Source of the DNA: a virus
Strand: one strand, 5' to 3'
DNA: 53,673 nucleotides
Virus record (IMG/VR): IMGVR_UViG_3300031111_000014
Location: 1-53,673 of that record
The position numbers and the translations under genes were made by a program. This document shows, piece after piece, positions 33,578-42,791 of this stretch. Every line of letters begins with the position of its first letter. The stretch's first letter is position 1. The notes beneath the pieces were generated by a model that searched no databases, was not told the origin of the DNA, and saw only the letters and a program-made list of their open reading frames with translations.

Positions 33578-34396
33578 ATGGTAGAGATCGAAAAAGACGT
33601 ACCGCTCCTCCGCACGACGTTAACCATCCGGGCGGTCGAGAATAAAATCCAGCAGTTATTCGATTCGAAGGTGATCGGCGGGACCGTGCACCTGTCTATC
33701 GGGCAGGAGGTGATCGACGCCTCGATTATTGGGGCATACGACAACCCCCTGGTCTTCGGCAACCACAGGTCGCACGGCCAGTATATTGCGGCCACCGGCG
33801 ACGTTCGCGGCCTGTTCGAGCAGGTCTTCTCCGGCATGTCTCAGCATCTGTACTACCCCGATAAGTTCCTGTCTCACGGGATTCAGGGCTCTCTAGTCCC
33901 TGTCGCATTCGGCGCGGCAATGGCGTTCAAGCAGAGGGGGCTTGATCGCCGTGTTATTTGTTTCATCGGTGACGGGACGCTCGGGCAGGGCGTGGTCTAC
34001 GAGACGCTCAACCTGATGGGGCGGTATAACCCGCGTATGACATTGATTGTGATCGATAACAGGTACTCTATGGCGGAGACACGGCAAGGGTTGGAGGGTT
34101 GGGGCTCGCCCGTATTCCCTGAGGTCTTTGAGGTTACCCAGTATTTCGGCGACGTGAGGGGCTTCCCTGAATATACTGACTCCGATATTGCTGTCTTTGC
34201 CGCATCGCGTCTCTGCGGCCATTCCTGCAACGATACGCAAATGTACCGGCCCAAAGAGGAGCGAACGCCGGGGTGGGTAGCCCAAAACGACCCCCTGCAG
34301 GTATTTCTCGAGGACCCGATGCTTGAGGGGTTACGCCGACAGATCGAAACCGAAGTTGAGGAAATAGCCAATGACGTACAGAAACGCCATCAATAA
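33578..34396 (+). CDS. Thiamine-diphosphate dehydrogenase E1, alpha subunit
   Basis: 272 residues. E1-alpha of the 2-oxo acid dehydrogenase type. Visible: HRSHGQYIA (63-71, matching the conserved H in HRTHGH), GIQGSLVPVAFGAA (101-114), thiamine-diphosphate motif GDG (131-133) ... N161 at the usual spacing, and CGHSCNDTQMYR (213-224), the active-site loop. Shorter than typical cellular E1-alpha (over 320) but all cofactor residues present. Decarboxylates a 2-oxo acid or makes a related transfer with the beta subunit encoded next (26-base overlap). Substrate unknown; very unusual in a phage. Confidence 0.85.
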   Translation: MVEIEKDVPLLRTTLTIRAVENKIQQLFDSKVIGGTVHLSIGQEVIDASIIGAYDNPLVFGNHRSHGQYIAATGDVRGLFEQVFSGMSQHLYYPDKFLSHGIQGSLVPVAFGAAMAFKQRGLDRRVICFIGDGTLGQGVVYETLNLMGRYNPRMTLIVIDNRYSMAETRQGLEGWGSPVFPEVFEVTQYFGDVRGFPEYTDSDIAVFAASRLCGHSCNDTQMYRPKEERTPGWVAQNDPLQVFLEDPMLEGLRRQIETEVEEIANDVQKRHQ

Positions 34397-34892
34397 GGCG
34401 TTGCGGGATCTCATGGCCGAGGACGGCCGTGTAATCCTGATCGGGCAGTCGATCCGGGACCCCTACGGTGGTGCCTGCAAGGTCACCCGGGGCCTAACCA
34501 AGCATTTCGACGGCCGGATATTCGACAGCCCAATATGCGAGGACGCCATGATCGGCTGGGCTATTGGCCTGTCACTGCAAGGCTACGTCCCGATTGTCGA
34601 GATCATGTTTGCCGATTTCCTGCCGCTTTGTATGAACCAGATATTCAACGTCGGCAAAGTTATACACCAGTACCACCAGCCCGTCAAGGTCGTGATCAGG
34701 ACTATGATCAACGGCGACAAGATGTACGGCCCGACCCATAGCCAGAGCATGGAGTATCTGCTGGGGACACCACAGGACGTGGTGCGCGGGCCGGACGTCG
34801 CCGGGATATACCGGCGGGCGGTCGAGGACAAAGATCACCCGGTGAACATCATCGTCGAGAATAAACAGATGTACGACAAGGAGGTGGAGTAG
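34371..34892 (+). CDS. Thiamine-diphosphate dehydrogenase E1, beta subunit (pyrimidine domain only)
   Basis: 173 residues. Matches the N-terminal half of E1-beta: FDSPICEDAMIGWAIGLSL with E57 as the Glu that activates the cofactor, VEIMFADFLPLCMNQIFN, and YGPTHSQSMEYLL. The C-terminal transketolase-C domain (another 150 or so residues in cellular E1-beta) is absent, and the gene ends cleanly, so this is a minimal version or a truncated one. The missing domain normally helps bind E2, so the pair may work without a dihydrolipoyl transferase. Confidence 0.85.
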   Translation: MTYRNAINKALRDLMAEDGRVILIGQSIRDPYGGACKVTRGLTKHFDGRIFDSPICEDAMIGWAIGLSLQGYVPIVEIMFADFLPLCMNQIFNVGKVIHQYHQPVKVVIRTMINGDKMYGPTHSQSMEYLLGTPQDVVRGPDVAGIYRRAVEDKDHPVNIIVENKQMYDKEVE

Positions 34893-35243
34893 ATGCCCGA
34901 CAGCAAAAGAACAATATGGCGGTGGGTGTGGCTTGTCCTTACGGTCGCGGTGGTCGCTATAATCATAGGGGTTGCCGTAAAAGGCATCTACGATCAGGAG
35001 GTCCTCAATTTCAGGGCGAGGGCGATAGACAAGGCTGTCGTTGTCAAAAAGATATTTATCGGAAGCCACCCAAAGATATTCGGATCTCGTCCAGCGACGT
35101 TTCGGTTAGTTCTGATTGGGGCCGATGGCGAGGGTAAGATCAGAATGACGGAGGATGTTCCCCGAGAGTTATTCTACGCGGCGGGGGTTGGCGATTCCAT
35201 AGATTTGGCTGATTATTCTATTTTCTGGAAGGCTGACAAATGA
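34893..35243 (+). CDS. Membrane-anchored hypothetical protein
   Basis: 116 residues starting directly after the E1-beta stop. One N-terminal membrane helix (about 11-31, WVWLVLTVAVVAIIIGVAV), then a soluble beta domain (AVVVKKIFIGSHPKIF...YSIFWK). Overlaps the acyltransferase gene start (ATGA). Not recognised. Confidence 0.5.
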   Translation: MPDSKRTIWRWVWLVLTVAVVAIIIGVAVKGIYDQEVLNFRARAIDKAVVVKKIFIGSHPKIFGSRPATFRLVLIGADGEGKIRMTEDVPRELFYAAGVGDSIDLADYSIFWKADK

Positions 35244-35992
35244 AGCAGCTCATCATCATCGGTGCTGGCAAGGGCGCGGAGCTGGTACTCAAGTGGGTGG
35301 AGCGGTTTAACGAGTACGAATATAGAGTGTGGTCGGAGATATGGGGGCCATTCCCTCGAGGTGCAGGCTTTACTCCCGATCTAATCACGCCCGTTGGTAT
35401 CTTGGATGACTGCGAGGACCGGCACGGGCAAGAGATTATGGAGGTCCCCATAATCGGGGCAACCAACTATCTCAAAAGGCAGGAGTGTCTTTGTGGTCAG
35501 GCTGATTGCCTTGCGAATACTCGCCTGCCTAAATATCACCTGATCTGCTCGTCCTCCAATGTCCCCTTCCGCAAGAAGATCGCGGCCATGTACTCGGGTA
35601 AGTACCCCTTTCTCAATTCGATACGCTCCGAGCTGGCCGACGACATCAAGATCGGTGAGGGCAATATCATATTCCCTGGCGTCTCGACCGACTGGTTTAC
35701 CGAGATCGGCAGTCATAACGTCATGTCGACCGGCTGTGCAATCGCCCACCACAACAAGATCGGTGACTGCAACCTGTTCGGCCCGGGCTGCATGTTCTCG
35801 GGCTCGGTCACTATCGGCTCGGGTTGTCGGTTCGGCAGCCTGATCGTGGTAGAGCCCTGTGTGACAATCGGCGACGACTGCAACATAGCCTCGGGCAGCG
35901 TAATAGTCGGCGATGTCCCGTCCGGGACAAGCATCAAGGCTATACGCAACACCGGCCAGCCGATCTACCAGGGCGAAAGGAGGGTGCGGTGA
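35240..35992 (+). CDS. NeuD/PglD-like acyltransferase, left-handed beta-helix
   Basis: 250 residues. N-terminal Rossmann-like GAGKGAELV, then hexapeptide repeats forming a left-handed beta-helix (IGEGNIIFPGV, EIGSHNVMSTGCAI, KIGDCNLFGPGCMFSGSVTIG, TIGDDCNIASGSVIVGDV) with the probable catalytic His pair in AIAHHNKIG. This family O- or N-acetylates sugar nucleotides (e.g. NeuD, PglD) with acetyl-CoA. It sits behind the E1 genes, so the cassette may use or make an acyl donor; the middle (40-110) contains an extra Cys-rich insert. Confidence 0.75.
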   Translation: MKQLIIIGAGKGAELVLKWVERFNEYEYRVWSEIWGPFPRGAGFTPDLITPVGILDDCEDRHGQEIMEVPIIGATNYLKRQECLCGQADCLANTRLPKYHLICSSSNVPFRKKIAAMYSGKYPFLNSIRSELADDIKIGEGNIIFPGVSTDWFTEIGSHNVMSTGCAIAHHNKIGDCNLFGPGCMFSGSVTIGSGCRFGSLIVVEPCVTIGDDCNIASGSVIVGDVPSGTSIKAIRNTGQPIYQGERRVR

Positions 35993-36162
35993 AAAAGGTC
36001 TATGTCATTGGCGGCCTGCTCGGCCTCTGGGTCTTCGCATGGGGAGCGGCTTTCTTCGAATGGAGTGATGCCTTAGTCGGCGGGGTCCTCGTTGCGGCGT
36101 TCTTCGTGGGGCTATTCGTTGTGGCCGCCAAACTAACCGAAAGCGAGGAACCGCCGTGGTGA
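35989..36162 (+). CDS. Two-helix membrane miniprotein
   Basis: 57 residues from GTG 35989, overlapping the acyltransferase stop (GTGA). Two membrane helices (VIGGLLGLWVFAWGAAFF; ALVGGVLVAAFFVGLFVV). Resembles the small membrane protein at 41243 in layout. Unknown. Confidence 0.5.
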   Translation: MKKVYVIGGLLGLWVFAWGAAFFEWSDALVGGVLVAAFFVGLFVVAAKLTESEEPPW

Positions 36163-36839: not shown

Positions 36840-38060
36840 ATGCCATTCGCACAACCTAAGTTTATATCAGATTGCGACATAGAGAAACTCAAGCCCTATG
36901 AGCGCAACCCCCGCAAGAACGACCCAGCCATTGAGGCCGTGGTCTCTTCCATCGAATCCTTCGGCTTTATCAACCCCATAGTCGTCGACGAGGATTTCCG
37001 CATTTGTGCGGGTCATACCCGATTCAAGGCCGCTACTCAAATCGGGCTGAAAACAGTCCCGGTTATTGTCGCCCCTCAGCTGGTCGGGGATAAGTTCGCC
37101 GGTTACAATATCGCCGACAATCAGACCGCCAGCATAGCCGAATGGGACGAGAGGGAGCTTGCCGGGATCATCAAGGAACTCCAGGAGAACGACTTCGAAA
37201 TTGATGCCCTCGGTTTCAACGCCGAGGAATTCAATGCGATTATGTCGACCTTGGACGAGCCGCCGGAGTACCTGAAGGATCCAGACTGGTCGCCTGAGCC
37301 TGAACCGGACAACCCGGTGACGAAGACCGGCGACCTGTGGTTGCTGGGCGACCATCGACTGCTGTGCGGTGACGCTACGAAGAAAGAGGATGTGGACGGG
37401 CTGATGGGGGGTAATATCCCAACCCTTATGGTAACTGACCCGCCTTATGGGGTCAACTACAATCCCGCTTGGAGAGATGAGGCTGCTGCCGCTGGTCACC
37501 TTACCCCGGCGCGACGTCGCATAGGCAAGGTGACCAGCGATGACGTCTCCGACTGGTCTGGTGCGTGGGGACTATTCTCTGGTGATGTTGTCTATTGCTG
37601 GCATGCTGGTCAGCATGCCAGCGTGGTCGAGGCGTCACTGTTGAATACAGGGTTCCCGATCCGTTGCCAAATAGTGTGGGCGAAGCCCGGTTTTGTTATC
37701 AGTCGAGGGCATTATAACGGACAGCACGAACCTTGCTGGTACGCTGTCCGCAAAGGCTCAACCGCACACTGGATAGGAGACCACTCACAATCCACTCTGT
37801 GGGAGATATCTAACCGCCTCTCTGAGGCTGAGGGGAAGACGAACCACGGTACACAGAAGCCGATAGAGTGTATGGCCCGTCCAGCCAGAAACCACTCCGG
37901 TGACGTCTACGACCCCTTCCTCGGCTCCGGCACCACGATGATCGCCTGTGAGCAGCTTGGCCGGAAGTGTTACGGCATGGAGATCGATCCTGTCTACTGC
38001 GACGTAGCCGTTCGCCGATGGGAAGGCATTACCGGCAAAAAGGCGGAGTTGGCGACGTGA
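36840..38060 (+). CDS. ParB-domain DNA methyltransferase
   Basis: 406 residues. N-terminal ParB/Srx nuclease-like domain (about 10-110: LKPYERNPRKNDPAIEAVV, FGFINPIVVDED, CAGHTRFKAA) fused to an adenine/cytosine methyltransferase with DPPYGVN (about 200-206) and DPFLGSGTT near 360. Such fusions are common just before phage terminases. May methylate or mark phage DNA near packaging. Overlaps the terminase small subunit start. Third methyltransferase in the genome. Confidence 0.8.
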   Translation: MPFAQPKFISDCDIEKLKPYERNPRKNDPAIEAVVSSIESFGFINPIVVDEDFRICAGHTRFKAATQIGLKTVPVIVAPQLVGDKFAGYNIADNQTASIAEWDERELAGIIKELQENDFEIDALGFNAEEFNAIMSTLDEPPEYLKDPDWSPEPEPDNPVTKTGDLWLLGDHRLLCGDATKKEDVDGLMGGNIPTLMVTDPPYGVNYNPAWRDEAAAAGHLTPARRRIGKVTSDDVSDWSGAWGLFSGDVVYCWHAGQHASVVEASLLNTGFPIRCQIVWAKPGFVISRGHYNGQHEPCWYAVRKGSTAHWIGDHSQSTLWEISNRLSEAEGKTNHGTQKPIECMARPARNHSGDVYDPFLGSGTTMIACEQLGRKCYGMEIDPVYCDVAVRRWEGITGKKAELAT

Positions 38061-41437: not shown

Positions 41438-41805
41438 TCGGCTGGCTGTTCTTCATCCTCTGGCTGGCATACCTCGGACACGCCTGGTATCGGTGGGTAA
41501 GGCGTGACGACCCGTTGAGACAGAGGCTCCCCGATGGTTCAACGAGGCTCGATCGCGCAAAAAGGAATAACAGCTTGATGTATCGAGAATACTACGACAT
41601 GACCCAGCCAGCGCAGGAGTTGGAAGCGTTCAGGGCCGACCTCGAAGCTGAACTCCAGAAACATTGCCCGGACATTAAAGTCGAGATAGCGCAGATAGGT
41701 GACGCTGGGACGTTGGACATCTCTAACCTTGCCGCCCAACCCAACATCCCAACTTTCCGATCTCGCCTCTCCGACCGATTCCGCGAAATGGGATGGGACC
41801 AATGA
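41434..41805 (+). CDS. Membrane-anchored hypothetical protein
   Basis: 123 residues from ATG 41434 (AAGGAGGAG). N-terminal membrane helix (IGWLFFILWLAYLGHAWY), then a soluble part with AQELEAFRADLEAELQKH. Stop overlaps the glycosyltransferase start. Unknown. Confidence 0.5.
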   Translation: MIGWLFFILWLAYLGHAWYRWVRRDDPLRQRLPDGSTRLDRAKRNNSLMYREYYDMTQPAQELEAFRADLEAELQKHCPDIKVEIAQIGDAGTLDISNLAAQPNIPTFRSRLSDRFREMGWDQ

Positions 41806-42791
41806 GTAAGCCCCTCGTCGTCTTCATCTCGATCCACGATTGGGCTAACTCCACCTACGAAGCGGTGCAGGCTATCAACCATGTCGGAGAGATTGATGCC
41901 CGGCATATCGTGCTCTGGGAGCACCCGTGGCAATATCCCCACGACCTGTGCATCCCCGTTGCCGGGTCGTCAATGCCAGCACGTAAGCACCCCAGGTTCT
42001 TCGAGGCGATGGACCTGCTTAACCGGGCCGACCTGGTACATCTGTGGAATTGTGAGTGGCGGGACTTTTCGAACGGTGCCCTGCATGGCAACATCCTGGC
42101 AGAGCCGTTCCCCGTCCCGGTCGAGAAAGTAAAATCCTGCTCATATACCGGGAGCCAGTACCGTAAGTTTCACTCACAAATAAACCCCCGCCTGAGAGGG
42201 CAGGGGTTAAAGCTGGCAGTGCAAGATCCCTGTTTCCATTGGCCCGATGAAATAGACGAGACTTTCATCCCGCATGCCGTGAACACCGATGAGCTGACAC
42301 CTTTGCCGATCGGCTTGCGGGATCCAGAAACTATTGGCTGCTACAACCCCGGCCGACCCAACTACGACGCCGAAATAAGGCTGCTGCGCAACGCCCTCGA
42401 TAAGGAGTACATTCAGTGGAAGCTGGTTATGGACCGGCTGCCGATATCACACCGGGACCACCTGAAGCAGGTAGCCAGGTGTCGATTCTTCTTCCAGTCG
42501 GTCTGGCGGGAGACCGGGACTTTCGGCAGATCGGCCCTTGAGGCCTGCTCGATGGGTGTCCCGACGTTCTCGATGATCTCCGACGAGGCCAGACAGCGGG
42601 GCGAGGTAGGTGGCTTTGACGACCCGGCGATTATCCACGTTACCGAACAGACGCTCGAGGACGTGATAGCCGAAACGATCAAGGCCAACTACGACGAGTT
42701 AAGTCACAGATCCAGGCAGTGGGTAATTGACCACTACAGCTATCCGGTAGTGGGGCGGATGTACACCGAGTTCTTTAGGGGGGTGGAGTGA
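41802..42791 (+). CDS. Glycosyltransferase, GT-B fold (GT4-like)
   Basis: 329 residues from ATG 41802 (ATGA with the previous stop). C-terminal nucleotide-sugar-binding half recognisable: IPHAVNTDEL, then CRFFFQSVWRETGTFGRSALEACSMGVPTFS, the E-x7-E type GT4 signature region, and a final helix RSRQWVIDHYSYPVVG. Transfers sugar from a nucleotide donor. Target may be host surface glycan, phage protein or DNA; a second such gene lies among the head genes. Confidence 0.7.
   Translation: MSKPLVVFISIHDWANSTYEAVQAINHVGEIDARHIVLWEHPWQYPHDLCIPVAGSSMPARKHPRFFEAMDLLNRADLVHLWNCEWRDFSNGALHGNILAEPFPVPVEKVKSCSYTGSQYRKFHSQINPRLRGQGLKLAVQDPCFHWPDEIDETFIPHAVNTDELTPLPIGLRDPETIGCYNPGRPNYDAEIRLLRNALDKEYIQWKLVMDRLPISHRDHLKQVARCRFFFQSVWRETGTFGRSALEACSMGVPTFSMISDEARQRGEVGGFDDPAIIHVTEQTLEDVIAETIKANYDELSHRSRQWVIDHYSYPVVGRMYTEFFRGVE

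Follow-up and report, generated by a model that had tools for sequence, protein, structure and literature searches.

The thiamine-diphosphate (ThDP)-dependent E1 subunits of the 2-oxo acid dehydrogenases have described relatives that take part in sugar modification. The AviB1/AviB2 and Pau11/Pau12 pairs are pyruvate dehydrogenase (PDH)-like E1 alpha and beta proteins found without a complete PDH complex, and they have been proposed to form a carbon-carbon sugar branch (PMC4425429, PMC4753412). NapB/NapD and RenH, from tetrahydroisoquinoline antibiotic clusters, are E1 proteins of the same wider subfamily as the locus described here, and a ketose phosphate has been reported as the source of the hydroxyethyl unit that NapB/D uses (PMC7570522). 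In viruses, the cyanophages S-SM2 and P-TIM68 have annotated relatives (phrog_34187) in which the ThDP-binding PP domain and the Pyr domain are fused and the C-terminal domain is missing, and viral proteins of this type occur in nucleotide-sugar clusters. On the acyltransferase side, NeuD, PglD and VioB combine a PglD-like N-terminal domain with a left-handed beta-helix (LbH) domain carrying a catalytic His. E1-like enzymes are therefore already known in phages; the reduced cassette presented below and its apparent bacterial parent, a lipoyl-LbH E1 architecture, were not found described in the literature that we searched.

The window analyzed is the whole of IMG/VR virus record IMGVR_UViG_3300031111_000014, 53,673 bases long, and it contains phage genes for a terminase, portal, head protease, tape measure and integrase. 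On its plus strand, a gene for a shortened, 272-aa E1 alpha-like subunit with the ThDP-binding PP domain (33578 to 34396) overlaps by 26 nt a gene for a 173-aa E1 beta-like subunit consisting of the Pyr domain only (34371 to 34892). The beta stop codon is abutted by an ORF for a 116-aa protein that we predict by eye to span the membrane once (34893 to 35243). This ORF overlaps by 4 nt the gene for a 250-aa NeuD/PglD-like sugar acyltransferase with a Rossmann-like N-terminal domain and an LbH domain (35240 to 35992), which in turn overlaps by 4 nt a small hydrophobic ORF of 57 aa with a GTG start (35989 to 36162). The alpha, beta and LbH genes are one packed operon. The earlier note had recognized the E1 pair correctly but had ended the unit there, overlooking the acyltransferase gene that extends it to 35992. 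A scan for promoters and terminators gave counts not clearly over the shuffled expectation.

Two further members of this gene run are less firmly tied to it. The 116-aa protein had no family match in Pfam, NCBIfam and PHROG profile searches, and in two viral contigs with related cassettes its position is taken by another ORF of 59 aa (L191) or by nothing (L192); because it is unconserved in this way, it is probably outside the cassette core. The 57-aa ORF is a portion of a 112-aa ORF, with its start inferred from the sequence, and is a possible last gene of the operon whose membership is uncertain.

The identity of the E1 pair rests on several lines. Pfam places alpha in E1_dh (1.1e-20) and beta in Transket_pyr (2.7e-24), and in the PDB the matching sequences are E1 subunits, alpha and beta, from human PDH and from 2-oxo acid dehydrogenases of bacteria (3e-15 and 7e-18). 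In family alignments the ThDP motif GDG...N of alpha lies at G131-D132-G133 and N161, and these residues are invariant among relatives together with H38, H63, R64, H66 and H215, so that the active-site His motifs HxxxGQE, xHRxHG and HS are all retained; in beta, the catalytic E57 and, in the GPTHSQ motif, H123 are conserved. An AlphaFold model of alpha built from 32 aligned sequences reached a pLDDT of 86 and a pTM of 0.88, and its top PDB structure matches were human PDH E1 alpha (TM 0.80 to 0.83). Two segments are missing from the chain: 9 residues ahead of the SQH loop, also absent from L191 and L192, and about 19 ahead of the last core strand. Judged by their sequences, the two proteins are E1-type ThDP subunits that retain the ThDP-binding and catalytic residues. 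The earlier note, which had placed both overlapping genes and their cofactor motifs correctly, had regarded loss of those residues in homologues as an argument against an E1; the residues are kept, and the E1 reading stands.

What distinguishes the pair from the E1 of a 2-oxo acid dehydrogenase is the absence of the beta Transketolase_C domain and of a cognate lipoyl-CAT E2. Transketolase_C (PF02780) was found neither in beta nor in a search of the whole record, in agreement with the earlier note's description of the subunit. Its statement that an E2 was missing also held for the canonical form, in that neither Pfam nor a custom lipoyl profile detected a lipoyl or E2-CAT domain in the window. 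The Pfam lipoyl result is by itself a weak negative, because Pfam also missed the lipoyl domain of the viral contig L195, which the custom profile scored at 62.8 bits; the custom profile was negative both in the window and in the searched regions of the other cassettes.

The acyltransferase (35240 to 35992) matches Hexapep (PF00132) at 6.6e-11 and the NeuD-type family TIGR03570 at 5e-29 (101.3 bits, under the 160.8-bit cut-off). Its N-terminal part reads directly from the sequence as a PglD-like Rossmann domain (GAGKGA, ILDD), its catalytic His, H170, is invariant, and none of its 250 residues matched a lipoyl domain by Pfam or the custom profile. In the LbH tree the window protein groups with the LbH domains of 12 bacterial lipoyl-LbH E2-like proteins (99/97), while a grouping with canonical NeuD, represented by five rows only, was rejected (AU p 0.0067). 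Most members of the window's LbH class have His-His at the position where the NeuD rows have His-Asp, and NeuD is a stand-alone protein, whereas the window class is linked to E1. A structural model of moderate confidence (pLDDT 73, pTM 0.52) bore a weak likeness in fold searches to the nucleotide-sugar N-acetyltransferases PglB, VioB and PerB (best E 2e-3).

A C-terminal tail of this protein (encoded at about 35920 to 35992) is common to the window, L191 and L192, with the sequences PIYQGERRVR, RVYGGERKVR and GPIYQGGRIIR; no such PIYQGxRxxR-like tail is present in the lipoyl-fused bacterial proteins. It could be a docking element standing in for the lipoyl and binding domains.

At least five other viruses (L191, L192, L193, L194 and L199) have the alpha-beta-LbH order too, again with no lipoyl domain detected. 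Four of these encode an alpha subunit, a short beta (163 to 176 aa) and a stand-alone LbH protein; the other, L194, has the same arrangement but a complete beta. L195 encodes a fused alpha-beta chain and a full lipoyl-LbH protein. Cassettes in viral contigs were recovered only by alpha alignments: scans of these contigs with a single alpha or beta protein, or with a beta pattern that included bacterial rows, gave no match. The shortened subunits of L191 and L192, about 50% identical to those of the window, keep every catalytic residue, and so do those of the more distant L193. L191 belongs to a relative of the window phage (terminase 45%, portal 36%, head protease 42%), yet its cassette lies between terminase and portal, whereas that of the window lies upstream of the methyltransferase and terminase genes; the cassette has therefore moved between related phages. 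As for neighboring genes, L193 has NeuB directly upstream of its cassette, L194 has NeuC (above cut-off) along with PseB-, PseC/LegC-, PseF- and WbuX-like genes, and L199 has glycosyltransferase-like ORFs, recognized by eye, downstream. With these cassettes, the cyanophage relatives in S-SM2 and P-TIM68 and the 233 IMG/VR stretches encoding relatives, the earlier note's impression that phages have no common module of this kind does not hold.

Among the viral relatives is a large family of fused E1-like PP-Pyr proteins, about 400 aa long and lacking the C-terminal domain, found in viral contigs and cyanophages (L002, L003, L012 to L091). Its upstream gene encodes a zinc alcohol dehydrogenase at 57 of 68 fused loci, a PfkB sugar kinase is present at 64 of 82, and the family probably serves sugar synthesis. 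The phrog_34187 proteins share with the window the two domains, the missing Transketolase_C and the viral setting but differ in being usually one chain, with the dehydrogenase before it, PfkB near and no LbH; the window has separate alpha and beta genes and other neighbors. Four more viral contigs (L219, L220, L222 and L224) encode a short alpha and a short beta (168 to 214 aa) with no LbH of the window class nearby, and in L219, L222 and L224 we noticed by eye nucleotidyltransferase-, isomerase- or epimerase-like ORFs. Others (L196/L204 and L197/L205) have a full-length alpha and a separate beta near DegT-like and amidotransferase-like ORFs; L196 is probably a separate acquisition, since the tree places it with canonical E1.

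Bacterial genomes offer the likely parent. A scan with the beta alignment yielded 80 loci whose beta proteins are 37 to 50% identical to that of the window. At 42 of them the E1 pair is adjoined by a protein matching both lipoyl and LbH profiles, and at 18 by a lipoyl-CAT E2 in its stead; Pfam finds Biotin_lipoyl, PglD_N and Hexapep within single bacterial proteins directly downstream of E1. Several of the loci nearest to the window in beta are also grouped with it by LbH (L102, L107, L114, L146, L117, L137, L106 and L120). The bacterial lipoyl-LbH operons (these and L140, L150 and others) agree with the phage cassette in the E1 subfamily motifs DPYGGA and GPTHSQ, in the order E1 alpha, E1 beta, LbH, and in an LbH of the xHH class, and they differ in that their beta has Transketolase_C and their LbH protein includes a fused lipoyl domain, both of which the phage lacks. 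To judge from this domain arrangement, the parent looks like an E2 whose catalytic domain was swapped for a sugar acyltransferase, giving a lipoyl-PglD-LbH fusion. Several of these loci lie among sugar genes: DegT aminotransferases accompany 13 of the 42 lipoyl-LbH loci, polyprenyl-sugar transferases occur at 13 of the 42 compared with 0 of 22 lipoyl-CAT loci, and relatives of glucose-1-phosphate cytidylyltransferase and CDP-glucose 4,6-dehydratase occur at 5 lipoyl-LbH loci, both exceeding NCBIfam cut-offs in the Chromatiales locus L107. The antibiotic-cluster type is different in this regard: RenH is 40% identical to the window beta, but at L095 and L096 the neighbors of the related E1 pairs are acyl carrier and E2-type genes.

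Phylogenies of the E1 pair changed with sampling. In a beta-only tree the window falls between the viral clade and bacteria, and an AU test did not reject its grouping with the viral clade (p 0.37); a first concatenated alpha/beta tree placed it with the bacterial subfamily, at a support of only 81/76. In an enlarged tree, where the phrog_34187-type proteins group with the window, the window clusters with L191 and L192 (100/98), and this cluster together with L193 joins the cyanophage-type clade (97/92). Uniting five lipoyl-less cassettes (window and L191 to L194) is not the best tree and was not rejected (p 0.36). These results suggest a single viral E1 lineage without the C-terminal domain, some members of which would have kept LbH and others a zinc dehydrogenase and PfkB kinase. 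This is only a suggestion because the earlier trees left the position open and branches are long.

Of the roles proposed in the earlier note, namely a new auxiliary metabolic function or the making of a modified sugar or base, the modified sugar is favored because of the LbH partner, the bacterial parent loci and the viral recurrence beside sialic-acid-type sugar genes (two viruses). We found no sign of a modified base, nor of a role in central metabolism. We consider it moderately probable that the cassette is a reduced phage version of the bacterial operon, in which E1 would make an acyl group and LbH would put it on a nucleotide sugar. Alpha and beta would assemble into an E1 heterotetramer with ThDP at the interface and act on a small 2-oxo acid or, like the NapB-type relatives, on a ketose phosphate. 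Since the lipoyl domain is missing, the acyl hand-over that we presume for the bacterial operon is impossible inside the cassette, and the unit may instead pass to a host lipoyl domain or to CoA. An LbH trimer could then move it onto a nucleotide-activated amino (or hydroxy) sugar, for example a precursor of a nonulosonic acid or a 4-amino-6-deoxy sugar. We identified no gene for sugar-nucleotide synthesis in the window, so the host would have to supply the acceptor. The product might alter a host surface glycan or a virion-associated glycan; lysogenic conversion of the host glycan is plausible because the phage has an integrase.

Other readings of the same genes have to be weighed. Alpha and beta could form a carbon-carbon bond that gives a 4-keto sugar a two-carbon acyl branch, with LbH then using ordinary acetyl-CoA to acylate the same sugar. 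Such chemistry has no use for a lipoyl arm, which would explain why the domain is missing; CDP-4-keto-sugar genes adjoin some of the bacterial relatives, and AviB1/AviB2 and Pau11/Pau12 offer a proposed precedent, Pau11 and Pau12 being full-length proteins of 325 and 345 aa. However, the window LbH descends from the lipoyl-fused class, an origin implying that E1 formerly supplied LbH, and we identified no ketoreductase among the window genes. On balance we regard sugar branching as unlikely. Acyl transfer could also proceed without any carrier, if the E1 pair docked on the LbH trimer, perhaps via the C-terminal tail, and passed the ThDP-bound acyl straight to the nucleotide sugar with neither lipoyl nor CoA; to this variant we would assign a rather small chance.

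The beta C-terminal domain is the docking side in solved E1 structures that include the peripheral subunit-binding domain of E2. Its absence here, the identical placement of an LbH gene after the pair in five other viruses and the location of relatives in sugar clusters all speak against an auxiliary metabolic E1 that plugs into host E2 and E3 to supply acyl-CoA during infection, with LbH unrelated. We consider this improbable despite the intact catalytic residues and the general presence of E2 and E3 in hosts. A similarly poor case can be made for a degenerating passenger with inactive, truncated subunits. The loss of the beta C-terminal domain and of two alpha segments would fit such decay, but the same short forms recur with all catalytic residues in L191, L192 (both about 50% identical) and L193, and the alpha model is confident, making decay improbable.

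If the acyl-sugar reading is right, ThDP chemistry would directly feed surface-glycan acylation, and the phage form would have dispensed with the swinging arm and with one E1 domain. This would be relevant to the ways in which phages modify glycans of the host or virion, and to the minimal size of a working E1. What began as an odd "phage PDH" annotation becomes a three-gene unit open to test, and virome surveys should keep genes of this kind out of their tallies of central-carbon auxiliary metabolic genes.

Some minor observations concern the rest of the window and the public records. Between the cassette and the terminase genes, positions 36840 to 38060 encode a ParB N-terminal domain fused to an N6/N4 DNA methyltransferase (phrog_498). 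Positions 41793 to 42791 encode a 332-aa protein without a Pfam or PHROG match; a look-alike lies directly 3' of the terminase in L177, the matching site in L191 holds a protein with a weak glycosyltransferase match, and the 332-aa protein may act together with the cassette. Matches in Acinetobacter phage MD-2021a, Enterococcus phage Efs 1-1-1 and Pseudomonas phage Y12 look like bacterial sequence under a phage name, with complete acetoin- or 2-oxo acid dehydrogenase-type operons, and we did not treat them as phage precedents. CAKLQH020000018, OR846616, OQ572413 and similar phage-labeled records hold complete bacterial dehydrogenase operons, apparently through contamination, and such records inflate counts of "phage PDH."
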